This document shows positions 1 to 15,027 of a DNA stretch of 15,027 nucleotides, piece after piece. The first letter of the stretch is position 1. Each line of letters opens with the position of its first letter. The stretch lies in the NCBI GenBank assembly GCA_019057975.1, contig JAHLWJ010000088.1, forward strand, positions 1 through 15,027, read 5' to 3'. Both the position numbers and the translations under genes were made by a program. The notes beneath the pieces are model-generated. The model was not told the origin of the DNA. It was given only the letters and a program-made list of their open reading frames with translations, and ran no database searches. This stretch comes from Promethearchaeota archaeon. GTDB lineage: Archaea > Asgardarchaeota > Lokiarchaeia > Sigynarchaeales > SOKP01.

Positions 1-265
1 CATCTTTATAATTATAAGTGGCGGCAATATTTCTATGATAACTATATTTTAATTTCCGGTATTTTGGATTATAAAGAAAACCGTTTTTACGACAGGCAAA
101 GCAGTGATATTTTTCTTTTTCTTCGTCAATATATAAATTAGGCCGATTTTTATCCGGATGAAAAGGACACAGAGCTATCCAGTTTTTACCTTCTTTTTTA
201 GTAGCTTCAACAGATACTATTCTTCTCGCTTGATTATCCCATAAATGAAAAATCCTACTTTTCAA
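1..265 (-). CDS. CHC2 zinc-finger (DNA primase-like) protein, 5' part only
   Basis: The minus strand encodes 88 residues before running off the left edge of the window, so only the N-terminus is visible. It contains the pattern CPFHPDKNRPNLY, about 12 residues, then YHCFACRKNGF. This is the CPxH...CxxC arrangement of the CHC2 zinc finger found at the N-terminus of bacterial primases (DnaG) and of plasmid, phage and integrative-element replication proteins. The zinc ribbon contacts single-stranded template DNA during primer synthesis. The start is a TTG at 263-265. An in-frame TAA lies three codons upstream, and AGGAGG lies 13 bases before the TTG, a long but usable spacing. It lies 49 bp downstream of the 59-aa gene on the same strand and is probably co-transcribed. 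Without the TOPRIM part I cannot tell chromosomal DnaG from a mobile-element primase. The short loop after the finger and the neighbours favour the latter. Confidence 0.75.
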   Translation of the reverse strand, partial: MKSRIFHLWDNQARRIVSVEATKKEGKNWIALCPFHPDKNRPNLYIDEEKEKYHCFACRKNGFLYNPKYRKLKYSYHRNIAATYNYKD

Positions 266-314
266 TGATTCTACTTACCCTCCTGACAGATTATTAAAAA
301 AATATAAAAAACAA

Positions 315-494
315 TTACTCGGTTTCTTCCAGCTTACTCTCATGGGCTAACAAGAAATTAAACAAGGCAGTCATGTTTTGGGTGATTTCCCTGGCATCAC
401 GCATAGTGAGGGGAGTAGGGAAATAGGGCTGCCAAACTTGAATGGTCTTTTCCAGAAACTTCCTGGAATATCCGGGAGATATTTTTTTCGCCAT
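315..494 (-). CDS. Small conserved-looking protein, 59 aa, upstream of the CHC2 protein
   Basis: The reading frame begins MAKKISPGYSRKFLEKTIQ and ends HESKLEETE followed by TAA. The start ATG at 492-494 has a good ribosome binding site (GAGGTG, 7 bases upstream). The core, around residues 13-45 (FLEKTIQVWQPYF, PLTMRDAREITQNM), is amphipathic and helical with no transmembrane segment and no zinc ligands. From memory, short proteins of this kind (VWQPY...PLT..DAREI.. pattern) are common in accessory regions of uncultivated bacteria, often near primase-like genes. I know no function and cannot verify the family here. It is followed closely by the CHC2 gene, so the two likely form an operon. A 12-bp palindrome lies 25 bp upstream of the start and could be its operator. 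Codon use is less AT-extreme than that of the 602-aa gene next door. Confidence 0.7.
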   Translation of the reverse strand: MAKKISPGYSRKFLEKTIQVWQPYFPTPLTMRDAREITQNMTALFNFLLAHESKLEETE

Positions 495-519
495 ATGTTT
501 TCACCTCTATATATAATTA

Positions 520-531
520 GTGACATGTCAC
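520..531. promoter_or_regulatory. 12-bp perfect palindrome upstream of the 59-aa gene
   Basis: GTGACATGTCAC is a perfect inverted repeat located 25 bp before the start codon of the minus-strand 59-aa gene, next to an AT-rich stretch (TAATTATATATA) that could hold its -10 element. Size and position fit an operator for a dimeric helix-turn-helix repressor. The half-site GTGAC recurs in the palindrome at 602-621. No repressor gene can be matched to it from sequence alone. Confidence 0.4.
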
Positions 532-556
532 ACGGGGCGAAATAAAACGGTCAAGA

Positions 557-575
557 TCCTTGTAAATAAAGGATT
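557..575 (-). terminator. Weak hairpin after the 602-aa gene
   Basis: ATCCTT (557-562) pairs with AAGGAT (570-575) across a 7-base loop, and the stem can extend by three pairs including one G-T wobble. It lies 18 bp past the stop of the 602-aa gene in its direction of transcription. The following minus-strand bases (GACCGTTTTATTT) have only a poor U-tract, so it is a possible but weak terminator. Confidence 0.25.
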
Positions 576-593
576 TTGATTTTGGAAAATAAT

Positions 594-2402: not shown

Positions 2403-2407
2403 TAAAT

Positions 2408-2413
2408 ATTATA
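2408..2413 (-). promoter_or_regulatory. Possible -10 element of the 602-aa gene
   Basis: The minus strand reads TATAAT here, 5 bp before the ATG at 2402. The hexamer 17 bp upstream (TATGAA) is a poor -35. If real, transcription would start almost at the ATG, which fits the absence of a ribosome binding site. In such AT-rich DNA a TATAAT can occur by chance. Confidence 0.3.
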
Positions 2414-2485
2414 AGTCATTAAAATTGAAATTCATAATAAATAAGTTCATTGCTTATTTATTATCTCAAAATACTAACCTGATCC

Positions 2486-2605
2486 CTGATATCCCCTGAT
2501 TTATCAGAACATTTTTGGCGATATTCCACGATTTATCGAACCTTACTTTTTGTTATTTTCTGTTATTTCTAACAATCTGCAACCGATTTTCACCGATTTA
2601 TCGGT
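2486..2605. repeat. Three phased iteron-like repeats with GATTTATC palindromic cores
   Basis: Three copies of a 23-bp unit lie at about 2486-2508, 2518-2540 and 2583-2605. Each has an upstream GAT(A/T)T exactly 10 bp before a GATTTATC core. The cores are imperfect palindromes with a 2-bp centre: CTGATTTATCAG (2496-2507), CGATTTATCG (2529-2538) and ACCGATTTATCGGT (2592-2605). Unit spacings are 32 and 65 bp, close to 3 and 6 helical turns, so all present the same DNA face. A separate inverted repeat, TGTTATTTCTAACA, lies at 2561-2574. The array sits in the 361-bp gap between the 602-aa gene and the recombinase remnant. It could be an operator array, a replication iteron cluster or recombinase accessory sites. 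Apart from this array I see nothing else in 2606-2763. Confidence 0.55.
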
Positions 2606-2763
2606 AAATACCAAGAACTACATACTGGAAAGTTTGAAATATGTTTTAAAAAAAGAAGGATTTTATAAGCCTTTTGTTGTATTATGAAGAGGATATAGAA
2701 AAATTAAAAAAGATTTTTTTTACTCCCTACTGGTGATATAATAAAATAAATATAGATGTCTGA

Positions 2764-2970
2764 GATAAAACAAAAAACCATCTCCTGATACGTAAGAGAA
2801 TAGGATTAAGAGAAATAGCCCGGGAGCTAAATGAAAAAGGCGTACCTACTACAAGGGGCGGCAAGTGGTATGCTGGGACTATTAAATATATACTGGAAAA
2901 TCCTCTTTATAAGGGGATAGCTCATTATAATGAAAATAATGTAAAAAATAAAGATTTGCCTTTATTTTAA
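2764..2970 (+). pseudogene. Remnant of a large serine recombinase (recombinase domain, C-terminal part)
   Basis: After an in-frame TGA at 2761-2763 the frame reads 68 residues to TAA at 2968-2970. Its core, GLREIARELNEKGVPTTRGG then KWYAGTIKYILENPLYKG, is the signature of the Recombinase domain (Pfam PF07508) of large serine recombinases and transposon resolvases. This helix-turn-helix-like region normally follows the catalytic N-terminal domain. The catalytic domain with the nucleophilic serine is absent, there is no plausible start codon, and nothing upstream resembles the missing part. The cysteine-rich zinc region and coiled coil expected downstream are missing too. I read this as a decayed fragment left by an integration or excision event. 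It shows that the region has been a target for mobile elements. Confidence 0.8.
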
Positions 2971-2982
2971 TAAATAGAAGGC

Positions 2983-3588
2983 TTGTTTAACATTATGATA
3001 AGAACTTACAAGCAAATTATATTTTCTGAAAATAAAAAGAGGTTAGCTCTTTTAGAAAACTTTAAGCTTCATTTGAAGGCCTATTTAAGTAATCTAATGG
3101 GTGCCTTTGAGGGGGGTCTATACGAAAATGTAAAAGCGGGGGAAGAACATAAAGAAATAAATAAACTTATAGATGAAGCATGTCTTTATATAGAGGCTAT
3201 TCCTTCTATTGTAGGTGTCGTAGATGAAAATAATTATTTGACAAAAAACTTAATTTACAATCAAAACATAATAGATAGGAAATATTTTTATGAATCATTA
3301 GTAAATATGACGGAAAGGGCAATAGCCGTATACAAAAAGGATAATGTAAGAGCTAAGCAGAGAACTTATTGCCCTCTTTTTTGGATAGCATTAGTAATAG
3401 ACTGTCTTGTTGTCTTACCTTTTGAAGCTCTCGGCAGAGCGGGCTTTAATCAGAACAGGATAGAAGTTTCCTTTATAGGGAAACTCTTTAAATACGTATT
3501 TTATGTAATTTCTTATCTTTCCCTTGCTGTAGCTGCACGCGTTGTTATTAATGCTTTGGTTAAAGCAGGGTATCTTAATGGGTCTTAA
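2983..3588 (+). CDS. Hypothetical protein with two C-terminal membrane helices, 201 aa
   Basis: I do not recognise a family. Residues 1-125 are soluble, mostly helical and charged, with no cysteine or histidine motif. Residues about 131-150 (PLFWIALVIDCLVVLPFEAL) and about 168-192 form two membrane helices separated by a short polar loop (GRAGFNQNRIEVSFIGK). The likely layout is a cytoplasmic N-terminal domain anchored by a helical hairpin. The start is uncertain. TTG at 2983 lies only one base after AGAAGG, too close for that site, while ATG at 2995 lies 13 bases after it, rather far. The shorter 197-aa product from ATG 2995 is at least as likely. It starts 12 bp after the recombinase remnant and is followed by a 116-bp gap before the methyltransferase, so it may or may not belong to that operon. 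A defence-associated membrane effector is conceivable, but nothing in the sequence proves it. Confidence 0.65.
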   Translation: MFNIMIRTYKQIIFSENKKRLALLENFKLHLKAYLSNLMGAFEGGLYENVKAGEEHKEINKLIDEACLYIEAIPSIVGVVDENNYLTKNLIYNQNIIDRKYFYESLVNMTERAIAVYKKDNVRAKQRTYCPLFWIALVIDCLVVLPFEALGRAGFNQNRIEVSFIGKLFKYVFYVISYLSLAVAARVVINALVKAGYLNGS

Positions 3589-3704
3589 TTTTAAAGAGTT
3601 CAAATAAATAACTGTAAGAACGAAATCCCGACAAACCAAAATTTTACTTAATAAAAATTAAACAAAAAATTTTCTTATTTTTACGGACGGAGGTATATGA
3701 AAGT

Positions 3705-4595
3705 TTGAAAAAAACGGAATTAATAAACCAACAAAAATATGCTCTTAATAAAAAGGTTACACATCATAAACTAATAATCGGAAATTGTATGAATATGCCT
3801 GAAATTTCAGATGGGAGTGTTCATCTTGCAGTAACTTCTCCACCTTATTTTAATGCTCCTTTTGATTATAAAGGATTATTTAGAGATTATAAGCAATATT
3901 TAAGCGTTCTTCGCAAATTTGCAAAAGAAGCATTCAGAGTTCTTGCGAAAGGACGAATATTTATTTTAAATATTGATGATATGTTAATTGATGGTGAGAA
4001 ATTTCCTATTGTGGCAGATGTAACAAAGATTTTTCAAAAAGCTGGTTTTAGATATAGAGATAGAATAATTTGGGAAAAACCAGAAGGGTATATAAGAATT
4101 AGTAGAAGAAGTGGAGTTATAATTCAGAATCCTTATCCTATGTATTTTTATCCTGATAATCTTCTTGAAAGTATTATTATATTCCAAAAAGGGAAATTTG
4201 ATTATAAATCAATTGACAAAAAAATCAGAGAGGAGTCAAAAGTAGACATTAAAGAATTTCAACAAAAAAAATGGTTTCTAACTCTTTGGAGAATGAATAA
4301 TGTAATGCCTGGCTCACCATTAGAAAAAGACATAGCAGCATTTCCAGAAGAATTACCTTATCGAGCAATAAAATTATTCTCTTATGTTGGTGAAACAGTT
4401 CTTGATCCTTTTGCCGGTTCAGGTACAACCATGAAAATTGCAAGACAACTTGGAAGGAATAGTATAGGTATAGAAATTAAAAAATCATTAATTCCCATTA
4501 TAAAAGAAAAGCTTGGGTTTAGCGGACAAGAGACATTGTTTAAAAATGATGATACATTTGAAACAATAGAAAGAACAAGGGGGTGGATAAAATAA
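3705..4595 (+). CDS. Beta-class DNA methyltransferase (N4-cytosine or N6-adenine)
   Basis: This enzyme transfers a methyl group from S-adenosylmethionine to an exocyclic amino group in DNA. Motif IV, TSPPY (residues 44-48), comes before motif I, DPFAGSGTT (residues 234-242). This is the beta-class order of the N4/N6 DNA methylase family (PF01555). The (S/T)PPY form is most typical of N4-cytosine enzymes, but N6-adenine is not excluded. FPEELPYRAIKLFS (213-226), just before motif I, is another family hallmark. At 296 aa it is a normal length and looks intact. The start is TTG at 3705 with GGAGG ending 11 bases upstream. A nearer ATG at 3697 opens only a three-codon frame (MKV, then TGA) that overlaps the TTG. 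The endonuclease gene overlaps its 3' end by 13 bp, so the pair is translationally coupled. The methylase would protect host DNA from the neighbouring nuclease. Confidence 0.93.
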   Translation: MKKTELINQQKYALNKKVTHHKLIIGNCMNMPEISDGSVHLAVTSPPYFNAPFDYKGLFRDYKQYLSVLRKFAKEAFRVLAKGRIFILNIDDMLIDGEKFPIVADVTKIFQKAGFRYRDRIIWEKPEGYIRISRRSGVIIQNPYPMYFYPDNLLESIIIFQKGKFDYKSIDKKIREESKVDIKEFQQKKWFLTLWRMNNVMPGSPLEKDIAAFPEELPYRAIKLFSYVGETVLDPFAGSGTTMKIARQLGRNSIGIEIKKSLIPIIKEKLGFSGQETLFKNDDTFETIERTRGWIK

Positions 4596-5656
4596 TAAAC
4601 ATAACTGCAAATATTAACGGTATAAGATATACTCCTCTCTTGTGTAAGGAATTATATACTTTTAACATATCAGAATTATCTGAAGCACTTTCAAAAAAAG
4701 CGACCTTTATTTTAAGGGTAGATGATAAAAATCAAATCGCTATAAGTTGGTGGGTTTCTGCAAAAAGGACAAGGTCTTACCCATACACTCGTATTTATAA
4801 TTCTCTTGGCTTTTCTGGCAAAAAACTAACCGTTATTCCTATGGTAAAAGACGAAGGGAAAGAAGGTGATAGAGATTTTTTGCAATGGGATACGGTTTCT
4901 TTAATGAGCCTATTAAATGTTTATGTAATTATCTCTTATTATAAATATGCGGAGAAAAGCTCAAGATATAAAAACAAAATAACAAATCAAAGATTTGATG
5001 CAAAACAGATTAAATTTGAAATGAATAAATTACTCTCATATCAATCAGATGCTTTACACTGGAATATAGAACAAATAAATAAAGTTGCAGAAATAGGGGA
5101 AAATGCTCTTGCTTCATACGAAAATATTTCAAGCTCCCTTAATATTGAAATGCACTCAAAAATATCTGCTGAAAAAAGAATAAAAGAACTTTTAAAAGGA
5201 AAAGAAAATTTTATGAATCTATCAAGAGATTTAGCACATAAAGCCCAGCAAAGAGAAGGTATTACTGTTCAACCAAAGGAAAAACTGGTAGGAATTAAAG
5301 CAGCCCTAACTATCAAAAACTATCTTGGTGGAAACTATTATTTTACTTCTGATGAAGTGGAGATAAATAAAGAAAATATTTCGTTAATAGAAGCCAAACA
5401 TACTAAAGAAAATAAACTTCCATCAATTGGGGATATTAAAGATGGGTTACTAAAGATGATACTTTTTACAAATTTAGAAAATGTTAAAATTGGTAATAAA
5501 TATTACAATCCTATTCCAATATTAAAATTAACAACAGGATTAGGTTTCGATATCAAGAATATAAGCGGCCCTAATAAAAAAATATTGAATTTATTGAAAA
5601 AAGAAGCAGAAATAAATAAATTCAGAATTATAATCAATAACAATTTTTTTATATAA
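4583..5656 (+). CDS. Probable type II restriction endonuclease, PD-(D/E)xK fold
   Basis: The 357-aa product follows the methyltransferase with a 13-bp overlap, starting at GTG 4583 inside its last codons, which is typical of a restriction-modification pair. Near the C-terminus DEVEI is followed about nine residues later by LIEAKHTKE. This matches the acidic residue plus ExK of a PD-(D/E)xK nuclease active site (Mg-dependent DNA cleavage). The next stretch, LPSIGDIKDGLLKMILF, could be the helix packing on the active site. The N-terminal half has another conserved-looking block, VIPMVKDEGKEGDRDFLQWD, whose acidic residues might also be functional. No helicase or ATPase motif is present, so cleavage should be of the simple type II kind unless the downstream GHKL protein takes part. 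The recognition sequence cannot be read from the protein. Function rests on context plus the nuclease motif. Confidence 0.8.
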   Translation: MDKIINITANINGIRYTPLLCKELYTFNISELSEALSKKATFILRVDDKNQIAISWWVSAKRTRSYPYTRIYNSLGFSGKKLTVIPMVKDEGKEGDRDFLQWDTVSLMSLLNVYVIISYYKYAEKSSRYKNKITNQRFDAKQIKFEMNKLLSYQSDALHWNIEQINKVAEIGENALASYENISSSLNIEMHSKISAEKRIKELLKGKENFMNLSRDLAHKAQQREGITVQPKEKLVGIKAALTIKNYLGGNYYFTSDEVEINKENISLIEAKHTKENKLPSIGDIKDGLLKMILFTNLENVKIGNKYYNPIPILKLTTGLGFDIKNISGPNKKILNLLKKEAEINKFRIIINNNFFI

Positions 5657-5729
5657 TTTATAGCTGTTTAATCAATATTTTTAAAAAATAAATACCTAAA
5701 ATAATAAAAAAGAATTCCAGGAGATTTAG

Positions 5730-6362
5730 ATGAAAGACAAAGAAAAATTAGAAGAATTAAAACCATTCATTGAAGGTAGATACAAGAATATTGATTTAGA
5801 TCATTTGATGATGTATGTCATAAAAGAGCTAGAGAGAATAAAAGTGAATTTATCTTATGAAAATGCTGCTGTTGCAGCTTTTAGAATATTTCCAAAAAAG
5901 TTTTCTCTACCTGGTTTCCCAGAATATCCTGATTCTAACAGAGTTGATCAGTGTTTATGGCGTTGCTCTGGTAAAACAAGGCAATGGTTAGGTGGCAAAA
6001 CCAGGCAAGGATTTTACATAACCCCAAGAAGCAGAATTATTTTTGAGGAATCAGTAGATCTTTTAGAAGGTAGAAAATCTACAAAAACAAGAGCAATTTC
6101 TCAAACAAGGAGAAAGGAAACAATATTAGCCGAAACGCTTAATTCTTCAGCATATAAAAAGTTTTTAGAAGGAAATGGTAATTTAATAACAGAAGGAGAA
6201 ATATGTTTTTTGCTGCAGGGGACATTGGATTCTGAAAAGGATACTCTAAAGAAAAATTTAGATTTACTTAAAATGTTTGCAGAAGAACTTGATAGAAAAG
6301 AAATAACAACTTTTCTAGAGTGGATAGAGAGCCACTTTAAAGGTTTTTTAAGGAAAAAATGA
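5730..6362 (+). CDS. Putative winged-helix-like accessory protein of the RM/GHKL locus, 210 aa
   Basis: A soluble, basic protein with ATG at 5730 and a good CAGGAGA ribosome binding site 7-8 bases upstream. Residues about 22-112 look like one domain: helices (DHLMMYVIKELERI), then AAFRIFPKKFSL, PGFPEYPDSNRVDQCLW, and GKTRQGFYITPRSR near the end. The order helix, helix, then a basic hairpin ending in an ITPRSR-type turn resembles a winged helix, so DNA binding is a reasonable but unproven guess. Residues 113-135 are very basic (GRKSTKTRAISQTRRK), and 136-210 are helical and acidic. It lies 18 bp upstream of the GHKL ATPase, so the two are almost certainly co-expressed, and 73 bp after the endonuclease. 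I recall similar small proteins beside GHKL ATPases in restriction loci but cannot confirm it here. It may deliver the ATPase to DNA or act as the locus regulator. Confidence 0.7.
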   Translation: MKDKEKLEELKPFIEGRYKNIDLDHLMMYVIKELERIKVNLSYENAAVAAFRIFPKKFSLPGFPEYPDSNRVDQCLWRCSGKTRQWLGGKTRQGFYITPRSRIIFEESVDLLEGRKSTKTRAISQTRRKETILAETLNSSAYKKFLEGNGNLITEGEICFLLQGTLDSEKDTLKKNLDLLKMFAEELDRKEITTFLEWIESHFKGFLRKK

Positions 6363-6380
6363 TTATAGGGGGCAATTAAT

Positions 6381-8594
6381 ATGAAAGGAATTATTGAGGT
6401 TGACCCAAGGCATACTATACGAAGAATGAAAACAGGAATGCAAGGAGATGTTATTCGGGCTCTTGTTGAACTTATAACAAATTCAGATGATAGTTATATA
6501 AGAATGGAAGAAAATGGAGAAATTGAAGAAGGTAAAATAGAAATTGAATATGCAAAGTATGCAAATTTTGGCTTTTTTGTAGTTAGAGATCACGCAGAAG
6601 GTATGACAATAGAAGATGTCTATAATAATTTTAAGAAATATGGTGCTCCAACTAGCGGATTGAAAGTTGGAAAAAAAGTCCGGGGATATTTTGGGCAGGG
6701 TGCTAAGGATGCTTTGGTATCTATGTCTAATGGAACATTATTTACATTTAAAGATGATAAATTCACTCAATGTAAATTATATATTGAAGAAGGCAAACCA
6801 ATGTATGATATTAGTGATGCATTGTTTGCAACAAAAGAATTAAGGGCTAAACATAAGATATATGGAAACGGAACTATTGCAAGTTTTTTAGCCCACTCAA
6901 AAATAACTGGTAAAGTACCTAGGTTTGATACTATTCACCAAGAATTAGCAAATCATTATTTGCTACGTAAAATTATGAGCAATCCAAGAAGAAAAGTTAC
7001 ACTAAAAAATTTAGATAACAAAGTATATAGAAAACTTGGATATGTAAATCCAAAGGGGCAAGAAATTCTTTCAGAAGAATTTAATATTGACTATGAAAAG
7101 TATGGTAAATTCCCGATCCAGATTTCTATATCCCGAGCCGAAAGAGAGCTTAATCAGTCCGGTGATGACAGAAATGGTGGGCTTTTAATAGTTGACGAAG
7201 AGGGAATAATACTAGGCATTTCTCTTTTTAAATATGAAAATGAACCATTAGCAGCAAATTTCTTTGGAGAAGTTAAAATTGGCCGCTTCAGAGAACTGCT
7301 TTTGGATGAAGAACCAGTTTTAAGCGAAGAAAGGGATGGACTATTAAAGCGTCATCCATTTTGTCAATTATTAATACCGGAAATTGAAAAACGTTTAAGT
7401 GATATGGTAGAAAAAGAAAGAACAAGAAAACAAAACGAAGAGCGAAGCAAGGTAGATGCAGAGGAAACACTACGATATAGGAAAGCATTTTCAATCTTAA
7501 ATGAAATTGCTGAGGTTGAGGCTAAACCTACTACCTATTTGGGAGAAAAGAAAGATGATCAAATTGAAGATCCGCCTGGTGGATTTTGTATTTATCCATC
7601 TTCAGCTCAAATAACCATAGGAAAACGCTATGCACTTGAACTACGAGTCGATCCAAAGGTAATACCACATAGTACTATTGTAAAAATTTCTTCTAATAGT
7701 TCCAAGATTAACATATTAACTCCCCAAATAGAATTAGAATTATCTCAAGAAAATGGTGATGAAATAATCCGAAAGTTTATTAGCATAGAAGGAACAGAGC
7801 CAAATATTGACGCTGTTATTCAAGCGACAGCGGATAGCAAAATATCAAAAGCGAGGGTGTATATATTACCGGAAAAAGAATTATTATTGAGCGAAGGAAT
7901 GTCTTTTCAGCCTGAAAGCGTAACTTTACACCCTAACCATGTTAGGAAAGTAAACTTATTAATATATGTAAAGATGATCGAAAGTGGCAGTCAAATCCAG
8001 TTTTCTTGTGATAACGAAGTAGTACATATTTCAAAGGACCATATTATTGTAAACGAATTTGATGCTATTAGGCATATTGCCTCATACCAACTAGAGGTAT
8101 GGGGCGAAGGAGAAGGACAAGATGCTTTAATAGAAGCTACTTATGAAAATTATTTAGCTTTGTTGCAAATTAAAATAAGAGCAAAAGAAGAAAGCAAAAA
8201 AGGGAAAAAGGGGATGTTTAATGAGCCTGAATTTAATTTTGATCCTGAACCATTACAAAGAATCTCATATAGTAATGAGACAGGTAAAGTAATTATTTAT
8301 ATAAATTTCCCTTCAGTTAAGCATTATTTAGGTTTTAATTGTCAATTCAGAAAAGAAATATCGGCTCAAGTTTTTATTGCCGATATTATTGCAGAAAGGT
8401 GTTTCTATGAGATAGCAAAAAAAGGAGTCTTCTCACGTGTAGGCTTTTCCTTGAGCAAAGAAGCAGCTCCTGATAGGATACAAAGAGATGCTTTTAAACT
8501 GTCGAATAAATATGGGAAAAAAGTCCATCAAGCTTTAGTAGATCAAAGCATTTTAAAAGAATCACGCAAAATTAGTTTAGATAAAGAAAATTAA
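6381..8594 (+). CDS. GHKL ATPase, MORC-like (paraMORC type), linked to restriction-modification
   Basis: Residues 1-180 form a GHKL (Hsp90/MutL/histidine kinase-type) ATP-binding domain. The N box is ALVELITNSDDSY, with E30 as general base, N34 for Mg and D37. Motif G1 is RDHAEGM (D70, G74; the usual first glycine is alanine). The lid and G2 are GYFGQGAKDAL (G102, G105, G107). Residues about 180-335 look like the S5-like transducer domain. A charged, coiled-coil-prone stretch follows (339-372). Residues about 402-496 and 505-600 are beta-rich and look like two Ig-like sandwiches, and 612-725 is a separate C-terminal domain (VIIYINFPSVKHYL, then helices). GHKL ATPases related to eukaryotic MORC proteins are known from bacterial restriction-modification loci (Iyer, Abhiman and Aravind), which fits the neighbours. 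By analogy it would clamp or loop DNA on ATP binding. ATG 6381 follows a GGGGGC-like site. Confidence 0.87.
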   Translation: MKGIIEVDPRHTIRRMKTGMQGDVIRALVELITNSDDSYIRMEENGEIEEGKIEIEYAKYANFGFFVVRDHAEGMTIEDVYNNFKKYGAPTSGLKVGKKVRGYFGQGAKDALVSMSNGTLFTFKDDKFTQCKLYIEEGKPMYDISDALFATKELRAKHKIYGNGTIASFLAHSKITGKVPRFDTIHQELANHYLLRKIMSNPRRKVTLKNLDNKVYRKLGYVNPKGQEILSEEFNIDYEKYGKFPIQISISRAERELNQSGDDRNGGLLIVDEEGIILGISLFKYENEPLAANFFGEVKIGRFRELLLDEEPVLSEERDGLLKRHPFCQLLIPEIEKRLSDMVEKERTRKQNEERSKVDAEETLRYRKAFSILNEIAEVEAKPTTYLGEKKDDQIEDPPGGFCIYPSSAQITIGKRYALELRVDPKVIPHSTIVKISSNSSKINILTPQIELELSQENGDEIIRKFISIEGTEPNIDAVIQATADSKISKARVYILPEKELLLSEGMSFQPESVTLHPNHVRKVNLLIYVKMIESGSQIQFSCDNEVVHISKDHIIVNEFDAIRHIASYQLEVWGEGEGQDALIEATYENYLALLQIKIRAKEESKKGKKGMFNEPEFNFDPEPLQRISYSNETGKVIIYINFPSVKHYLGFNCQFRKEISAQVFIADIIAERCFYEIAKKGVFSRVGFSLSKEAAPDRIQRDAFKLSNKYGKKVHQALVDQSILKESRKISLDKEN

Positions 8595-8619
8595 TAATTT
8601 TTTCCGAAATAAAAAATTA
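8595..8619 (+). terminator. Weak all-A/T hairpin after the GHKL gene
   Basis: TAATTTTTT (8595-8603) pairs with AAAAAATTA (8611-8619) over a 7-base loop, right after the stop codon of the GHKL ATPase. The stem has no G-C pairs and no T-run follows, so it would terminate poorly. It may simply reflect the AT-rich background. The 115-bp gap to the next gene nevertheless suggests that the defence operon ends here. Confidence 0.25.
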
Positions 8620-8709
8620 TAGCCCGGTGATAATATGGAATGAATATTAAATAATAGAGGAATAAATAGACACACATCCCACACTAAATTTAATAGGATA
8701 AAGGTACCT

Positions 8710-9294
8710 ATGAAGAAATTATTTGTTTTAGGAATTGCACTATTTTTTTGTTTATTTTTTGTGGGTTGTAGTTGGATAATAACACCAACAATTATTCCAG
8801 ATAATGGCGGGATGGATGAATATGACCCCCAATTTATTTCTTTACTAAACGAATTAGATACCCCTTCAAAATTAATGAGTTATTTAAAGAATAGCACCCA
8901 ATACGGAATCCACATCGGGATATATACCCCTTATGAATTTTATCTTAAAAAAGAAGGAGACTGTGCTGATTATAGTATTTTTAGTTGTTATGTTTTACAC
9001 TATCATAACTACGTTGTACATTCTGTAAGAATAAGATTTTTTAACGAATTTTTAAACCACGTAATAACCGTTTTTGAACATAAAAATACAGACCAGTACT
9101 TTGGGTACACGTTAGCTAAATATGGTTATATTAGCGGTAGAAATATTTATCCAACAGGCTATTTTAACACACTAGATACCATTGAAGACTGTGTGTATAA
9201 TTTTACCAAGTGGCCGGAGGGTGAAGGGTATGTTGTAAAAAGTTATGATGTTAACCCTTGGAATTATTGTTCTTATAGAACGATAGCCCGATGA
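8710..9294 (+). CDS. Lipoprotein with transglutaminase-like cysteine domain
   Basis: The N-terminus is a lipoprotein signal peptide: basic MKK, a hydrophobic core (LFVLGIALFFCLF), and lipobox FVGC with the lipidated cysteine at residue 20. The mature protein would be anchored to the outer face of a membrane. Residues about 80-140 contain GDCADYS (C85), NHVITVFE (H117) and a following TDQYFGY (D128). This order and spacing fit the Cys-His-Asp triad of the transglutaminase-like superfamily, whose bacterial members act as peptidases or bind peptides, often in the cell envelope. At 194 aa it is short but complete. ATG 8710 is preceded by AAAGGT at a suitable distance. Its stop overlaps the start of a 26-codon frame (ATGA). 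The substrate is unknown, and it need not be related in function to the restriction genes upstream. Confidence 0.75.
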   Translation: MKKLFVLGIALFFCLFFVGCSWIITPTIIPDNGGMDEYDPQFISLLNELDTPSKLMSYLKNSTQYGIHIGIYTPYEFYLKKEGDCADYSIFSCYVLHYHNYVVHSVRIRFFNEFLNHVITVFEHKNTDQYFGYTLAKYGYISGRNIYPTGYFNTLDTIEDCVYNFTKWPEGEGYVVKSYDVNPWNYCSYRTIAR

Positions 9295-9371
9295 AAGCGA
9301 AGAGGGGAGAAATAATAAAAGCGCGGATTAAAGAAGGCAAAATAATTTTAAAAGGAGCTATAAAAGGTTAA
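9291..9371 (+). CDS. Possible 26-aa peptide coupled to the lipoprotein gene
   Basis: ATG at 9291 overlaps the lipoprotein stop in an ATGA junction and opens a frame ending at TAA 9369-9371. The peptide is very basic: KAKRGEIIKARIKEGKIILK plus a short tail. It has no ribosome binding site of its own and would depend on coupling. A similar string, REIIKEWIESGRIKN, can be read without a start codon at about 13470-13517 after the 105-aa gene. Both may be relics of one small gene type, or chance in AT-rich DNA. I see no function. Nothing else is evident in 9372-9430. Confidence 0.3.
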   Translation: MKAKRGEIIKARIKEGKIILKGAIKG

Positions 9372-9409
9372 AAATACAAGAATTGTAATTTTATTATTAC
9401 AAGTAAATG

Positions 9410-9415
9410 TATAAT
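9410..9415 (+). promoter_or_regulatory. Possible -10 element of the HEPN gene
   Basis: A TATAAT at 9410-9415 lies 15 bp before the ATG of the HEPN gene, which has no ribosome binding site, so a near-leaderless transcript is possible. The only -35-like hexamer (TTGTAA, 9383-9388) is 21 bp away, too far for a standard promoter. Confidence 0.25.
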
Positions 9416-9430
9416 GCCTTACAAAAGTAA

Positions 9431-10111
9431 ATGGGAGAAATAGAAGAATTATATGAAGAATTTCAAAGTGAGGTTAATGTTGCGTGTTGGTCTTTTTATA
9501 CTTGGAAAAATATCCATAATATAGCAGCAGGTGATAAGAAAGTTCATCATGCTCTAAATAGGAATCCATTATCATGGAACATTATTTTATATTCACTGCA
9601 AAATGCTTTTTTTAGTGCTATCGCTCGGCTTTTTGATAAAGACGAAAGAACATTTTCTGTTCATATGTTTTTAAGGGCGTGTATTGAAAACACCGATCAA
9701 TTTAGTAAAGATGCATTACGAGAAAGAAAAATAAAAGGTCCGGATGCAGATAAATTATCCTGGCTTGATGGATATATAAAAAAATCTTATCAGCCAAACA
9801 AAGAAGATTTTCTGAAACTGAAAGGTGGAGTATCAAAAAAACAAAAGCTATACTACTTGGGATGCAAACCGATTAGAGATAAGATATTTGCTCATAAAGA
9901 ATTTAAAGAAATAAAATGTGTAGACGAATTATTTAGAAAAATAAAAATTGGTGAAATTCAAGATTTATTATGTTTTCTATATCAAATAGAAAGGATAATA
10001 TTCCAGCTTCTATATAATGGAAGATTAATGAATGTCGGAGATTTCAAATTTAACGAAGAGGAATTTATAATAAAAGATATTGCAGAGCTTCTTGATAAAA
10101 TAAAATCATAA
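9431..10111 (+). CDS. HEPN domain protein, AbiU2-like putative RNase
   Basis: An all-helical 226-aa protein. Residues 149-155 read RDKIFAH, the R-x(4-6)-H catalytic motif of HEPN ribonucleases. Residues about 54-80 (YSLQNAFFSAIARLFDKDER) match the pattern I associate with the AbiU2-like HEPN family (PF18734), where a hydrophobic helix is followed by a LFD turn. Proteins of this family are linked to abortive infection and toxin-type defence, probably by cutting RNA. No antitoxin or nucleotidyltransferase partner is adjacent; the neighbours are a lipoprotein and a 74-aa membrane protein. The annotated ATG has no ribosome binding site. Length and ends look intact. Assignment to HEPN is fairly firm; the subfamily is from memory, and toxin activity is inference. 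Confidence 0.75.
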   Translation: MGEIEELYEEFQSEVNVACWSFYTWKNIHNIAAGDKKVHHALNRNPLSWNIILYSLQNAFFSAIARLFDKDERTFSVHMFLRACIENTDQFSKDALRERKIKGPDADKLSWLDGYIKKSYQPNKEDFLKLKGGVSKKQKLYYLGCKPIRDKIFAHKEFKEIKCVDELFRKIKIGEIQDLLCFLYQIERIIFQLLYNGRLMNVGDFKFNEEEFIIKDIAELLDKIKS

Positions 10112-10153
10112 CAAGACTATCAATGCGTAAAGATTAAAGGAGGGTTTTAAAAA

Positions 10154-10378
10154 GTGAATAAAACACAGAAATTTATTTTGGCGATTTTTGTGCCAATAAT
10201 ATTTTTCTTTATTGCCGTATTTATTGCAAAAAAGGCAGTAGATTATAGAAGCAGTATTCTTTTTAACTTAGGGGAAACTTGGTGCGTGTGGCTTGTTTAT
10301 TCAGCCTCCTGTTGTCTTTTTGAATTTTTACTATTTAGAGATAATAAAATAATTCCCCGGAAAAATAAAAAAGATTAA
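10154..10378 (+). CDS. Small two-helix membrane protein, 74 aa
   Basis: GTG at 10154 is preceded by a strong ribosome binding site (AAAGGAGGG, about 8 bases upstream). Residues about 7-27 (FILAIFVPIIFFFIAVFIA) and about 42-62 (TWCVWLVYSASCCLFEFLLF) are membrane helices. The C-terminus is short and basic (RKNKKD), predicting a cytoplasmic tail. Small proteins with an MNKTQK start and a TW.VWL.Y second helix are familiar to me as uncharacterised proteins in environmental genomes, but I know no function. It starts 42 bp after the HEPN gene and may be co-transcribed. A holin-like or toxin-like role could be imagined from size alone, but nothing specific supports it. Confidence 0.7.
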   Translation: MNKTQKFILAIFVPIIFFFIAVFIAKKAVDYRSSILFNLGETWCVWLVYSASCCLFEFLLFRDNKIIPRKNKKD

Positions 10379-10400
10379 ATGCCACTTATATTTAGAAGAA

Positions 10401-10505
10401 TATTACAAGGATTAAGGAGGGTTTTTTATTATAAAACTATTTAATAAATACATTAAAGATGAAGATAATTCCATATTTATTAAGAATTATGAAAATATTA
10501 TTTAA
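10401..10505 (+). pseudogene. Deleted copy of the small gene at 13175-13411
   Basis: Bases 10401-10475 closely match 13144-13219, including the ribosome binding site (GGAGG, 10416-10420) and the first 15 codons after ATA (KLFNKYIKDEDNS). The match then stops. After about 15 unrelated bases the sequence from 10491 matches 13543-13593, which is the leader of the next gene at the other site. Relative to that copy about 310 bp are missing. What remains is a 24-codon frame without ATG, GTG or TTG, ending at TAA 10503-10505, with an in-frame stop just before the ribosome binding site. Confidence 0.65.
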
Positions 10506-10537
10506 AATTAAGGGGGTTTCTATTTATGAAAAGAAAA
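10491..10537 (+). repeat. Leader repeat, copy 1 (before the CHAP/lectin gene)
   Basis: GAAAATATTATTTAAAATTA and the following G-rich ribosome binding site and ATGAAAA resemble 13543-13593 in front of the channel-like gene. The repeat spans the last 35 bp of leader and the first four codons. Two otherwise unrelated genes thus share a translation-initiation region, which suggests shuffling of gene cassettes behind a common leader. Confidence 0.6.
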
Positions 10538-13033
10538 TTAAATGAACCAATTAAAAATAATTTATCAACTATGATGAAAAGAATAATAAATATTTTTATT
10601 ATTCTTTTCCTATTTTTGATAGTAATTTTTTATATTGCGAATGCAGCAGATGAAAGTATTATTATAAACTATAATAGTGATCTTTCTTATTTTATAGGCA
10701 TGGTTCATTTGGGAGTGAGACCCTATCAGAATATTGGTTTTTGGATGGGTAAAGGAGGTGCAGAGATACAATCTCACTCATATAATAGAGATAATATAAT
10801 AGAGAGTGTTCATAGAAAAATAGAGGAGAATGATCCATTTATCTATTATATCTATCGTTTCCCGGACCCTAATGGTTACGAAAATCTAACACAAATAGTA
10901 AATGAGAAAACTAAAATTGTTGAAAAAATTCAATTAACTATTAACTTGAGTTATGAAATTAAAGTATTTGGATCATTAGAAGAAGCATGTTTGGCTGTAA
11001 TAGAAAGCTTTATCAACAGCCGATATTTAGAAAAAGACATTGATTATAAATTTATAGATGAGTTTATTCACTCAGGAAAAAAGATTTGGATAAAAGGAAT
11101 TAAGAATAGTATAATATATGAGCTTATAAATATTCAAAAGGATAAGAAAGATAATTATTATTTAGTGGCAACATTTTTAAAAAATACCAATGGTGGAAGT
11201 GCTAAAGATAAAACATCTTCAAGTTATCAAGTGATTCAATATCCCATTTTTGATTCTTATCAATGGGAAGTAGGAATCCCTGGATTTTTCGAACCCGGTG
11301 AGATCACTAAATTTAAAGATACAACTATTAGCACAGTCCAACTTTCAAGTCCATCAAATGGAGAAACATTGCCGCTTGGAGATATTACTTTCTCTTGGAA
11401 TCCTGTGAGTAATGCTACAAAATATCAATTCATTTTCTACAACCGTCAAGGACAAGTTGCGCTAGACACGACTAAAAATACAACTTCTTTGACTATTCCC
11501 CTTGCTGGTGGTGAAGGAACAATCACCTGGAAAGTAAGGGCGGGTGATAACAGCGGTAATTGGAGTGCATGGTCTAGCTCATGGAGTTTGAATTTAAAAT
11601 CTAATACAACTATCAGCCCCGATTTCTCCCTCCAAGGTTTCGATACTGCCCACTCTTTAACCGGTAGCTTGCATTGTCCCGATAAAACCGGCTATGCCTG
11701 CCCCAGTTGCAGCACTGCCCCAGGTTATGATAATCATTTTAAAGGTTTTAACGTTCTAACTACCAATGAAGATTGTTACGTTAAATTAACTTATAATGAT
11801 GGAGATTATATAGGTAATCAAAATAATTATGAAGTCACCATCAAAGGAGAAAAGTGGTTAGGATTAGAAAACGAATCAGGAACAGAATTAGTAGAAGAAA
11901 TAAACAAGGGAAACTTTGACTTTGCACGCGCAAATAAATTTATTAAAAGAACAATGAATTTTCCCGGAGATAATTATAAATACGAATTTGCCGACGAGGG
12001 CAAGGAATTTCGGTTATACCTTTCAAGAAGTAGAGAAGAGGCTTTCAAGGCAGTACCTTGGAAAAATATCACTGTAGAAATAAAAAATAAAGAAACTGAT
12101 AAGATTTTTAAATATAAATTTTCGAAAGGCATTTTCCCCCGTGCATACTCTTGGAGTAATGGAGGGGTGGCAAATTATGGACAATGTGTATGGTGGACAG
12201 CTAAAAGATGGGTTGAAGAAGTGGACTCGAAGACACTGTTTCCTTTTTATCCTCCTTCCCCAGAAGCGGTAAACGTAAAAACAATTGATTCTAATTACCA
12301 ACCCAAAAAATATGATGTCCTTATCAATTATAAGCCAGGGGGGCCACCCGAACATTATGGCTTCGTAGAAAAAGTAGAGGGCGATAAGATGTATATTAGC
12401 CAATTTAATTGGATAAAACCGGGTGAAGTTTACAATTATATTATAAGGACCTGGAACGGAAACACAACTAGCCTTTTTTACTCTGGTACTTTTGATGATA
12501 AATATTATTTTAAATATTATTATAGACGGATGTCTACTGTATCAGAGACCGATACCTATGCCCTGCGCGACATCGGACCTGCGGAAGGCCAAATCTTCTA
12601 CGACAAAGGCAGTTACTCCAATGGCTGGCGGTATTTAGAAGCCACCCCTAAATCTACTGAATGGACGGGAAAAAAATGGGGTAGCAAGGGAACTTTGATT
12701 GGAGGAACAGAAACGGGCATTGGAACCGGGCAGAACAATACGACTAAAATCGTGACCTGGTTAAATAGTTATTCTGAAACAGACTGTGCGGCACAGCTTT
12801 GCGATGCTCTGGTTTACGGTGGCTATAGTGACTGGTTTTTGCCCTCGAAAGATGAATTAAATCTGATGTACGAAAACCTATACCTCGAAGGAGTCGGTGA
12901 TTTTAGTGTCGGCTACTGGAGTTCGTCGGAGGACATTGCTTACACCGCATGTTCCCAGGGTTTCTATAATGGTGGTCAGTTCTTCAACGCCAAGGACGAT
13001 AACTTACGGGTCCGTGCCGTTCGGGCTTTTTAA
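10526..13033 (+). CDS. Secreted CHAP-domain protein with C-terminal DUF1566/C-type-lectin domain, putative DGR target
   Basis: An 835-aa multidomain exported protein. A hydrophobic helix at residues 20-37 followed by ANA (38-40) looks like a signal peptide; ATG codon 16 (MMKRI) is an alternative start, although AGGGGG supports 10526. Residues about 265-357 resemble a fibronectin type III domain (SSPSNGETLPLGDITFSWNP, SGNWSAWSSSWSL). Residues about 545-655 are a CHAP domain with YGQCVWW (C554) and HYGFVEKV (H610), the Cys-His pair of peptidoglycan amidases and peptidases. Residues about 672-835 are a DUF1566/Lcl-type C-type-lectin fold, with DWFLPSKDEL, GYWSSSE and terminal RVRAVRAF. That ending and the NNY-rich codons before it are typical of diversity-generating retroelement targets. 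The segment from about 12550 on is clearly richer in G+C than the rest. A likely role is binding and local hydrolysis at a cell wall or partner surface (inference). Confidence 0.87.
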   Translation: MKRKLNEPIKNNLSTMMKRIINIFIILFLFLIVIFYIANAADESIIINYNSDLSYFIGMVHLGVRPYQNIGFWMGKGGAEIQSHSYNRDNIIESVHRKIEENDPFIYYIYRFPDPNGYENLTQIVNEKTKIVEKIQLTINLSYEIKVFGSLEEACLAVIESFINSRYLEKDIDYKFIDEFIHSGKKIWIKGIKNSIIYELINIQKDKKDNYYLVATFLKNTNGGSAKDKTSSSYQVIQYPIFDSYQWEVGIPGFFEPGEITKFKDTTISTVQLSSPSNGETLPLGDITFSWNPVSNATKYQFIFYNRQGQVALDTTKNTTSLTIPLAGGEGTITWKVRAGDNSGNWSAWSSSWSLNLKSNTTISPDFSLQGFDTAHSLTGSLHCPDKTGYACPSCSTAPGYDNHFKGFNVLTTNEDCYVKLTYNDGDYIGNQNNYEVTIKGEKWLGLENESGTELVEEINKGNFDFARANKFIKRTMNFPGDNYKYEFADEGKEFRLYLSRSREEAFKAVPWKNITVEIKNKETDKIFKYKFSKGIFPRAYSWSNGGVANYGQCVWWTAKRWVEEVDSKTLFPFYPPSPEAVNVKTIDSNYQPKKYDVLINYKPGGPPEHYGFVEKVEGDKMYISQFNWIKPGEVYNYIIRTWNGNTTSLFYSGTFDDKYYFKYYYRRMSTVSETDTYALRDIGPAEGQIFYDKGSYSNGWRYLEATPKSTEWTGKKWGSKGTLIGGTETGIGTGQNNTTKIVTWLNSYSETDCAAQLCDALVYGGYSDWFLPSKDELNLMYENLYLEGVGDFSVGYWSSSEDIAYTACSQGFYNGGQFFNAKDDNLRVRAVRAF
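12911..13030 (+). other. Putative DGR variable region at the end of the CHAP/lectin gene
   Basis: The last 40 codons begin GYWSSSE and end RVRAVRAF. Between these fixed blocks most codons end in C or T (GAC, ATT, GCT, TAC, TCC, GGT, TTC, TAT, AAT, TTC, TTC, AAC, GCC, GAC, GAT, AAC). Random replacement of the A bases in AAC/AAT template codons would produce this, and it is the hallmark of adenine-directed DGR mutagenesis. The GC-rich 3' end (CGGGTCCGTGCCGTTCGGGC, 13008-13027) would be the initiation-of-homing sequence. A GC-rich hairpin follows. No template copy or reverse transcriptase lies in this window. Confidence 0.6.
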
Positions 13034-13063
13034 TTATTTATCCATTTAACAATTAAGAAGACT

Positions 13064-13085
13064 GCAGGGGGCTTACGCCCCCTGC
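13064..13085. repeat. Perfect 9-bp GC-rich hairpin downstream of the variable region
   Basis: GCAGGGGGC (13064-13072) pairs perfectly with GCCCCCTGC (13077-13085) around the 4-base loop TTAC (GTAA on the other strand). An outer GAAGAC (13057-13062) can pair with GTCTTC (13099-13104). Neither strand has a T-run after the stem, so it is not a standard Rho-independent terminator. GC-rich hairpins or cruciforms just downstream of the variable region are a known target-recognition element of DGRs such as that of Bordetella phage BPP-1. Here the stem begins 30 bp after the stop codon. Confidence 0.7.
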
Positions 13086-13093
13086 CAAATAAA

Positions 13094-13411
13094 ATGGGGT
13101 CTTCACTGCTCCATAAAATAATAATGCGGTTATTGCAAAAATATATTACAGGTATTAAGAGGGAGGTTTTTACTATAAGACTATTTAATAAATATATTAA
13201 AGATGAAGATAATTCCATACTAGAAGTTTATTGTGATAACTTAAAAAGAGACGAGATTGAAGAGCTGTTAACATTACTTAAAGGTATAAAATTTAAATAT
13301 ATCTCTGTTGATATAAAAAGCATTAAAGCGGCCAAAGAAGGTCATTTTCGGGAAGTATATCAAGCTAAGAAGAGATTAGAAAAAGAAGGATTTAGCTGGT
13401 CGGGAAAGTGA
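13094..13411 (+). CDS. Small unrecognised protein, probably translated from ATA 13175 (78 aa) rather than ATG 13094
   Basis: The open frame from ATG 13094 gives 105 residues, but neither that ATG nor the one at 13124 has a ribosome binding site. A strong GGAGG (13162-13166) lies 8 bases before an in-frame ATA at 13175. The same binding site and following codons recur at 10416-10475, where upstream translation in frame is blocked by a stop. This points to initiation at ATA, or at another non-standard codon, giving a 78-aa protein starting IRLFNKYIKDEDNS. The product is charged and mostly soluble (RDEIEELLTLLKG, KKRLEKEGFSWSGK), with alternating strands and helices, and I do not recognise it. 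It could also be a decayed gene that has lost its start. After its stop, 13412-13542 holds only a start-less string resembling the 26-aa peptide at 9291-9371. Confidence 0.5.
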   Translation: MGSSLLHKIIMRLLQKYITGIKREVFTIRLFNKYIKDEDNSILEVYCDNLKRDEIEELLTLLKGIKFKYISVDIKSIKAAKEGHFREVYQAKKRLEKEGFSWSGK

Positions 13412-13542
13412 AAAGCCAAAGGAGAAACTTCGAAATTACTCGAGGGTGTCCTAGAAAAAAAAGAGAAGAGAGATAATAAAAGAGTGGATTGAATCCGGAA
13501 GGATTAAAAACATATAGCAATTAAAAAATATTACCGAAATTA

Positions 13543-13593
13543 GAAAAATATTATTTAAAATTAAGAGGGATTTCGAATTATGAAAAAAGAAAA
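13543..13593 (+). repeat. Leader repeat, copy 2 (before the channel-like gene)
   Basis: This matches 10491-10537 with few differences: AAATATTATTTAAAATTAAG, a purine-rich ribosome binding site (AGAGGGA here, AGGGGG there), then ATGAAAA. It includes the start of the channel-like gene. Together with 13144-13219 it brackets the 323 bp missing from the copy at 10401-10537. Confidence 0.6.
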
Positions 13594-14554
13594 TCACACC
13601 AGTAAAAAACAAAAAAAAGAAGAAACCTTTTTCAATAAAATTTTACTATATTTAATATTCTATCCATTTGCTACGATTTGCGGCGTGATTTACCTTTTCA
13701 GGGAAATTCTTTTTACAGTACTATTTAGAATAAAAGATATATATGAAAATATTTTAAAGCCTTTTAAAAAGGTTCAAATTCAAATTTTATTGGGTTGCAT
13801 TGATTTTGTTTGTGGATGTTTAATATTAAGATTATCTAACACGATTGTTATTATGAGTGCTATGGTAATATTAATAGTTTTGTTAAAATTACACTTCATT
13901 TTTTTATTCCAATTGATTACAAATCCCATGATGGCCTTTAGTCCTATTTTTCTGCAATACGAATTTTTTTATATACCAAATAAAGAAAATGTTATTGTTA
14001 AAAAATATTTTGATAAAAAAAATAAGACAAAAGATTTAAAAATTTTAGAAAAAATAAAAAAAGATTTAAAAGCAAGTATAATAATTTATGCAAAGGCATT
14101 TAATCGGTTAAATAATAGGATTAAGAACATAAGTGAAGAAAGAGCACTGTTAAAATTTTTTATCGCAGTTTTTATTATAACTGTTGTTTTTGCTATAATT
14201 GTTTTTTCTTTTGAGTATTATGGCCTAGCTAAGATAAATATTGAACATTTTTCTCTTTTGAAAGTAGTACAATATTTTGAATATTTCTATTTCAGCATAT
14301 CAATATATTCAACAATAGATTCAGATATTACACCATTAACTACTTGTGCTAAATCAATTGTGATTGTACAAATTTTAGTAGGGATTTTTTTGTTTTACAT
14401 ATTTATACTTTCGTTTTCAACTATTGGGCTTAAATCAACTTTAAAAGATAAAGAAAAAATGTTAAATAAAATAGAAAAGATATTAAATTATTTAGACGAT
14501 GTTGCTAAAAAGGAATTAAATACAAATATTGAGAATTTATTACAAGAGAAGTGA
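13580..14554 (+). CDS. Membrane protein with ion-channel-like pore module lacking the canonical filter
   Basis: The N-terminus is lysine-rich (MKKENHTSKKQKKEE). Hydrophobic segments lie at about 20-41, 66-84, 87-113 and 190-213, and the C-terminal part is FEYFYFSISIYSTIDSD followed by ITPLTTCAKSIVIVQILVGI. The latter has the layout of a two-helix potassium channel pore (Ion_trans_2, PF07885): pore helix, filter, DI.P.T...K loop, inner helix with a glycine hinge. The filter itself reads TIDSD (245-249) in place of T-x-GYGD, so both glycines and the tyrosine are missing. Potassium selectivity is therefore unlikely; a non-selective, altered or dead pore is possible. Residues about 141-190 are a charged, cytoplasmic, helical linker, and 285-324 a helical tail. 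ATG 13580 follows AGAGGGA, and the gene ends before a strong terminator. The last 324 residues have no domain I can name besides the pore. Confidence 0.75.
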   Translation: MKKENHTSKKQKKEETFFNKILLYLIFYPFATICGVIYLFREILFTVLFRIKDIYENILKPFKKVQIQILLGCIDFVCGCLILRLSNTIVIMSAMVILIVLLKLHFIFLFQLITNPMMAFSPIFLQYEFFYIPNKENVIVKKYFDKKNKTKDLKILEKIKKDLKASIIIYAKAFNRLNNRIKNISEERALLKFFIAVFIITVVFAIIVFSFEYYGLAKINIEHFSLLKVVQYFEYFYFSISIYSTIDSDITPLTTCAKSIVIVQILVGIFLFYIFILSFSTIGLKSTLKDKEKMLNKIEKILNYLDDVAKKELNTNIENLLQEK

Positions 14555-14608
14555 TTCTGTGATATATTTTTTCTGATTCTTCTTTTTTAATGCTATAAAT
14601 ATAAGTAC

Positions 14609-14647
14609 AAAAGGGAGTGTGATTCGCTAAAATTACACTCCCTTTTT
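14609..14647. terminator. Strong Rho-independent terminator, probably bidirectional
   Basis: AAAAGGGAGTGT (14609-14620) pairs with ACACTCCCTTTT (14635-14646). The stem extends inward by three more pairs, including a G-T wobble, to leave an 8-base loop. A T-run ends the plus-strand stem, and the A-run at the left end supplies one for minus-strand transcripts. It lies 54 bp after the channel-like gene. Confidence 0.85.
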
Positions 14648-14655
14648 ATGGCTAT

Positions 14656-14694
14656 ACCGAAAGACTTAACATACGTTTTCCTTTCGGTTTTTTT
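14656..14694 (+). terminator. Second Rho-independent terminator
   Basis: ACCGAAAG (14656-14663) pairs with CTTTCGGT (14681-14688) across a 17-base loop and is followed by seven T residues on the plus strand. It directly follows the first terminator, so transcription from the left should end completely here. Confidence 0.75.
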
Positions 14695-15027
14695 ATTCTA
14701 TTAGATTTAATTATTTTTTCAGTATTTCTTACCCAGCAAATTGAGGCCCCACTCTTTCTCTCTTTCTCTCTCATTAATCATTACCATGCCAGGACAACTT
14801 TTCTCTAATATTTCACATTTTATTTAATCTAATTCAATCATTCTCGATTTAATCAATCCTGGTCACTCTGCCCAATATGATTTAATCTATTTTAACCAAT
14901 CCGATTAATTCACTCCGGCTATTCTAATTTTACAATCAAACGCGCGGGGCGGGTAACTTTCCTTCCCCCTTTAATCCCCCCTAAAACCCCCCTCTTAACC
15001 CCCTTCTTTTTATTATTGCTCCTTGGC
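14695..15027. other. Gene-free pyrimidine-rich region with ATTTAATC repeats and C-runs
   Basis: I see no convincing gene on either strand in the last 333 bp. The plus strand is strongly biased to C and T (for example CTCTTTCTCTCTTTCTCTCT at about 14752-14771) and poor in G. ATTTAATC or close variants occur at about 14704, 14821, 14848 and 14879, with a related GATTAATTC near 14903. Four runs of five or six C at 14965-14969, 14976-14981, 14987-14992 and 14999-15003 make a G-quadruplex motif on the minus strand. This could be the leader of a gene beyond the window, an element end or low-complexity spacer. Confidence 0.55.

Follow-up and report, generated by a model that had tools for sequence, protein, structure and literature searches.

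Diversity-generating retroelements (DGRs) randomise a single binding surface of a protein. Targets that lie far from the retroelement serving them are known from the DGR of Treponema denticola. In this species, one reverse transcriptase (RT) and template serve several distant targets, and targets were also found in strains without the core of the element (PMC4891356). Surveys of the surroundings of the RT miss remote targets, as one such survey states itself (PMC8144416). For phage DGRs, hairpins with GC stems of 7-10 bp, a 4-nt loop of the sequence GRNA and a spacing of 4-34 bp have been reported (Guo et al. 2011, PMC3240598). Here we analyzed a stretch of 15,027 nucleotides (contig JAHLWJ010000088.1, positions 1 to 15,027), which is referred to as the window. 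At the 3′-end of one of its genes it contains a segment that was very probably written by a DGR. A sequence-only reading of the window had proposed a DGR variable region (VR) at this place, and this proposal is now strongly supported by a matching template, by complete cassettes in spirochaetes and by the divergence of relatives at the positions of template asparagines.

The VR reaches from 12911 to the stop codon ending at 13033 (+ strand) and was delimited by template comparison and family variability; the diversified codons are 12932-13006. The last 40 codons of the target gene (12911-13030) read GYWSSSEDIAYTACSQGFYNGGQFFNAKDDNLRVRAVRAF. A template matching the window VR (ENNANNAWNQNFNNGNQNNNNKNNN) was found in a related genome, namely in the Atribacterota locus L051, where it adjoins a broken RT of the DGR type. 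The lectin gene of L051 ends with YYWSSSENNANNAWNQNFNNGNQNNNNKNNNKRVRAVRGF, a run of AAC/AAT codons, and is followed by RT pieces containing the motifs GNLTSQ and YVDD. The motif GxxxSQ marks DGR RTs. In an ungapped comparison of the window with the L051 template, 22 of 44 adenines differed, compared to 13 of the 76 remaining bases. For codon positions 1 and 2 the values were 22/42 and 2/38, respectively (P 2.3e-6), and within codons 8-33 substitutions at these two positions affected 21 of 38 adenines but none of the 14 other bases. Non-A third positions of the same codons differed in 6 of 24 cases, a number that may be expected for the template of another species. The control, 54 bases around DWFLPS upstream of the VR, was unbiased (3/18 adenines vs 6/36 other bases). 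Furthermore, we used 45 distinct gap-free lectin ends of the fetched loci as mock templates, each 40 codons long, with longer and shorter ends excluded. P values below 1e-3 were obtained only for L051 and the spirochaete locus L006, the sole true templates among them. The template of another locus, L181, gave P 1e-4. The templates of these three other species thus closely repeat the window VR, with most differences falling on template adenines; a repeat of this kind next to a DGR RT was what the sequence-only reading had advised to search for.

In L051 (9134-11332) the lectin gene is fused straight to the template repeat (TR), with the frame-broken RT behind it. Since the lectin gene runs into the template without a break, we interpret L051 as a decayed DGR in which VR and TR became fused; the arrangement looks like a VR/TR recombination that ended the element. 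A tblastn search did not reveal a significant avd match in L051. Among the best 120 of 5619 proteins, the closest ones to the broken RT pieces were ~70% identical.

The protein relatives of the target diverge in the same manner. We studied the best 120 of 2091 sequences above the threshold, 90 of which possess the lectin motif; 51 have gap-free ends of 40 residues, 49 of them distinct and 48 without the window. Over these 48 relatives, the entropy amounted to 3.28 bits for the 16 columns with a template Asn and to 0.88 bits for all other columns. The residues E, K, Q, M and W, which cannot be encoded by codons ending with C or T (NNY), accounted for 32 of 768 residues at the template-Asn columns, compared to 16% upstream. 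The six closest CHAP-lectin relatives were 76-81% identical to the window just upstream of the VR. Within the VR, they shared 17-21 of 23 residues at the non-Asn columns but only 0-4 of 16 at the template-Asn columns. An even divergence of relatives, named beforehand as a refutation, was thus not seen.

When named genomes were scanned for the lectin, at least 358 relatives emerged; the best 80 of them represented 79 loci and comprised the Atribacterota loci L001, L002 and L051 along with many spirochaetes. In the spirochaete loci the gene order is VR, hairpin, avd, TR, RT, as shown by L006 (Spirochaetales), whose Avd matches NF033474 with E 3.1e-19 and a score of 69.2 bits, which does not reach the cut-off (80). 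Within-locus comparisons of VR and template were made with gaps allowed, for L006 and L045 owing to a one-codon indel. L006 differed at 13 of 43 adenines and 5 of 77 other bases, while L181, L182, L183 and L188 exhibited 18-21 adenine and 1-3 non-A differences. The pattern of L045 was weaker (19/39 adenines, 11/80 other bases). The VRs of the complete spirochaete loci end with VRAF or CRAF and their templates with VRGF or VRDF; the window ends with RAF. At E 1e-40, 14 of 392 Spirochaetota genomes contained an RT of the L006 type. Viral contigs disclosed 79 stretches with a template of the L051/L006 kind. Out of 83 template placements, four of which were the single L051 locus fetched repeatedly, 71 had a partner VR in the locus, and in 60 of these 71 the best partner showed at most two non-A mismatches. 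In the viral contigs, a search with the target protein gave no relative, an alignment search four distant ones, and none of the stretches fitted the pattern of the constant bases of the window. Phage records contained no match to the window lectin at E 1e-5.

The target gene (10526-13033, + strand) is an intact open reading frame (ORF) of 835 amino acids, as determined by ORF reading and by Pfam and NCBIfam profile searches. By reading, the protein starts with a hydrophobic signal-like segment, followed by a CHAP domain (amidase/peptidase-like; profile match, residues 547-627, 12164-12406, + strand) and a C-terminal Lcl_C lectin domain, a family whose older name is DUF1566. The matches to PF05257 (E 7.3e-5) and PF07603 (E 1e-6) were below the curated cut-offs; a partial match to NF046116 was far below. 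The C-terminal domain is predicted to adopt a C-type lectin fold, and the VR lies at its 3′-end. According to one study, DUF1566 is the commonest domain of DGR targets (PMC6642488). The protein is presumably secreted and a putative wall hydrolase, in which the lectin would have a binding role.

As described in the sequence-only reading, the blocks GYWSSSE and RVRAVRAF flank a run of NNC/NNT codons. All 16 codons at the window positions matching the template Asn of a relative end with C or T, compared to 55.7% of the 122 upstream codons in the lectin domain (binomial P 8.7e-5). The RVRAVRAF segment (13007-13030, + strand), identified by comparison with relatives, is the probable initiation of mutagenic homing site (IMH), the 3′-anchor of the VR. 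Both blocks belong to the general Lcl_C signature and therefore are by themselves no proof of a DGR. The codon bias, too, was dropped as sole proof in view of two Psychroflexus genes dealt with below.

A GC-rich hairpin behind the VR, likewise announced by the sequence-only reading, was found at 13064-13085 (+ strand) by hairpin scan, fold score and comparison. This putative target-site hairpin or cruciform starts 30 nt past the stop codon and has a perfect 9-bp GC stem (arms GCAGGGGGC/GCCCCCTGC), the loop TTAC and a DNA fold z of -3.98; it is the sole hairpin of the window with a stem of at least 7 bp and a GC content of at least 0.7. A GC-rich 3′-anchor is hence followed by a hairpin, as in known DGR targets, with a loop off the phage consensus. 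GC-rich hairpins (stem of at least 7 bp, within 100 nt) followed 15 of 91 lectin-ended genes including that of the window, compared to 13 of 787 control ORFs taken from these loci. In five of six complete spirochaete loci a hairpin precedes avd; L188 had none. The 4-nt loops GGAA (L006) and GATA (L045) fit GRNA, while CTTG (L181), ATAT (L182) and GCAA (L183) do not. GRNA, the loop reported for phage DGRs, is therefore not a general rule in this group. We had considered that TTAC might be a GTAA loop in inverted form and serve as a switch, but dropped this idea because the loops vary within the group. An Rfam search of the window gave no match.

The lectin domain, VR, spacer and hairpin together make up a cassette of ~545 bp (12544-13093, + strand), whose bounds were derived from DNA similarity and GC content. 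It showed 79% DNA identity to L002 over 547 columns (12555-13093) and 77% to L001 over 543 columns (12544-13083). The similarity to L002 and L001 ends at or just past the hairpin, that to L173 earlier, at 13038. The GC content of 12542-13085 (0.476) exceeds that of all 290 comparison windows of 544 bp, the preceding part of the gene and the region 13086-13600 reaching 0.331 and 0.291, respectively. The GC-rich segment of the sequence-only reading was therefore real (VR 0.512), but the rise starts at about 12542 and not at 12911. Out of the best 120 relatives, 19 stop one residue past the YYYR of the CHAP part. In the window the lectin follows at this point and hence looks like an addition. Beyond YYYR, six others carry a different extension and P0018 contains a cut-short lectin. 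A motif count of 28 relatives lacking the lectin was too high, since P0004 and P0006 do carry it. The CHAP parts of P0003 and P0008 are 71% identical, but their lectins reach 92% and their VRs share 38 of 39 residues. Their nearly identical VRs despite the diverged CHAP parts imply that the cassette was transferred or converted in one piece, without later rewriting. We infer that the cassette moves as a unit. If so, the site of a targeted mutation could be inherited independently of the machine writing it. It is doubtful, and at present no more than an idea of ours, that lectin, VR and hairpin constitute a mobile self-contained tag. Such a tag would travel from gene to gene and from species to species without its writer, could be attached to any secreted protein and would be rewritten wherever it meets a compatible DGR.

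The host of the window is probably a member of the Atribacterota, judging from sequence composition and similarity. Its tetranucleotides were closest to those of L001, L002 and L051, all Atribacterota, among 51 loci, and a neighboring protein is 48% identical to a protein of L001. We lean towards a writer that is present and working in trans on the window target. A DGR elsewhere in the genome would transcribe a template repeat close to that of L051. The RT together with Avd would copy the template RNA, placing random bases opposite adenines, and the cDNA would take the place of 12911-13033, with the GC-rich 3′-end as its anchor and the hairpin as an aid. As a result, about 16 C-type lectin residues on a secreted CHAP protein would be re-drawn. 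This presumes that template and RT reside in the genome of the window and are active, and that copying runs from the template to the VR.

A number of findings weigh against a writer, or against DGR origin as such. In line with the sequence-only reading, which saw no local retroelement, TR, Avd and RT are all missing from the window: tblastn with a DGR RT gave a best E of 0.61 (strong matches in the controls L045, L181 and L051), tblastn with the L006 Avd 5.7 (matches in L181, L045 and L001), and the best other window segment showed 22 non-A mismatches in 102 bases, compared to 10 for L051. The CHAP part had no match in any of 50 Atribacterota genomes, in a search without positive control, which speaks against a host from this phylum. 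The lectin was present in 6 of these 50 genomes, one being the fused template of L051, whereas an RT of the L006 type was missing from 49, the sole match being the broken one of L051. Within the phylum that probably contains the host, targets are thus more numerous than writers. This would mean that the writer occurs rarely and has escaped binning or, alternatively, that many of the targets are orphans. The genomes of L001 and L002, the nearest loci, gave no match to the DGR RT. An RVT_1 match in the genome of L001 (L085, E 2.2e-20) lies in a 690-aa ORF that the DGR RT search did not match. DGR RT homologues in 483 plasmid records, of which 8 were listed, and among the best 120 of 5619 proteins could not be tied to the organism of the window. 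It is quite possible, though not what we expect, that the window VR was written by a DGR in an ancestor or donor and has since been fixed, template and RT having been lost or never having arrived. Leftover targets are known from T. denticola strains without the core DGR (PMC4891356). Behind the target hairpin of L001 (10559-10621) only the first codons of avd are left, as determined by tblastn, and by reading they seem to be kept behind the VR in L173 and, less clearly, in L176; such codons mark decayed DGR cores. The cassette of P0003 and P0008 illustrates that a VR can be copied without rewriting, and the 13 non-A differences to the L051 template include a conserved Trp codon changed to Cys. 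On the other hand, the VR of the window is intact, its hairpin is perfect, and codons 8-33 lack any non-A change at positions 1 and 2 even against the template of another species. Moreover, the missing RT says little because the searched genomes are mostly drafts of unstated completeness.

Non-A differences are left since the templates come from other species. The template of L183 reached only P 0.0012 with the window and that of L045, one codon shorter with a one-codon indel, P 0.25. Similarly, the codon bias alone is weak evidence, because 44 lectin ends average 88% NNY at the template-Asn positions and the near-identical Psychroflexus ends L068 and L070 reach 14/16, in genomes not searched for RT. 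These values, and the generality of the signature blocks, would suit an ordinary Lcl_C end whose loop varies by normal selection, the NNY bias being a coincidence of composition. We consider this very unlikely, as the base-level test separates adenines from other bases and is passed only by the true templates among 45 ends, as columns of 3.28-bit variability lie between nearly invariant ones, and as hairpin and flanks are shared with complete DGR loci. For the hairpin, the loop TTAC departs from GRNA, and 76 of the 91 lectin-ended genes lack such a structure. Our scan read it as terminator-like on the minus strand, so that it might be a mere transcription terminator unrelated to the VR. This is extremely improbable, because no T run follows on the strand of the gene and because nearly identical arms occur at the same offset (30 nt) in L002 and identical ones 42 nt past the stop codon, in front of avd, in L006.

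The window contains other genes as well. Two overlapping genes, 3705-4595 and 4583-5656 (+ strand), encode a type II restriction-modification pair (PADLOC, methyltransferase E 6.7e-75, restriction enzyme E 1e-95). A 210-aa ORF without Pfam match (5730-6362) precedes the gene of a 737-aa protein with a HATPase_c_3 domain (6381-8594, + strand). PADLOC matched neither of them; the two are possibly an undescribed defence pair beside the restriction system. The product of 9431-10111 (+ strand) is a HEPN AbiU2-like protein (PF18734, E 4.2e-19) without PADLOC match, and the 602-aa protein encoded by 594-2402 (- strand) matched nothing in Pfam, NCBIfam or PADLOC at E 1e-3.

Our data extend remote DGR targets to a probable member of the Atribacterota, a subsurface phylum rich in uncultured members, and to a CHAP protein. 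While this kind of target is already known, its novel aspects are the host, the combination with CHAP and a cassette with sharp bounds. A literature search, supplements excluded, found no paper pairing "diversity-generating retroelement" with "Atribacter", and among the JS1/OP9 matches listed the DGR term was absent; "CHAP domain" and the DGR term do co-occur in some published papers. The TvpA-like remote targets of T. denticola resemble the window by A-biased differences and lectin ends; there, however, the templates lie within the species and the lectins are of the FGE-sulfatase type, in contrast to Lcl_C on a CHAP protein (PMC4891356). Remote variable proteins of cyanobacteria likewise carry C-terminal lectins on varied N-terminal domains, are dispersed over the genome and have the VR at the 3′-end, but are mostly predicted to be cytosolic, unlike the window protein with its signal-like start and CHAP domain (PMC7517822). 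The Bordetella phage BPP-1 shares a GC-rich stem of 7-10 bp with a 4-nt loop past the VR; its loop is GRNA instead of TTAC, and its mtd, avd and brt are absent from the window (PMC3240598). The locus L006 has the same lectin type, the VRAF end, a similar spacer and identical hairpin arms, but differs from the window by the loop GGAA, the hairpin distance of 42 nt, and avd, template and RT lying directly behind.
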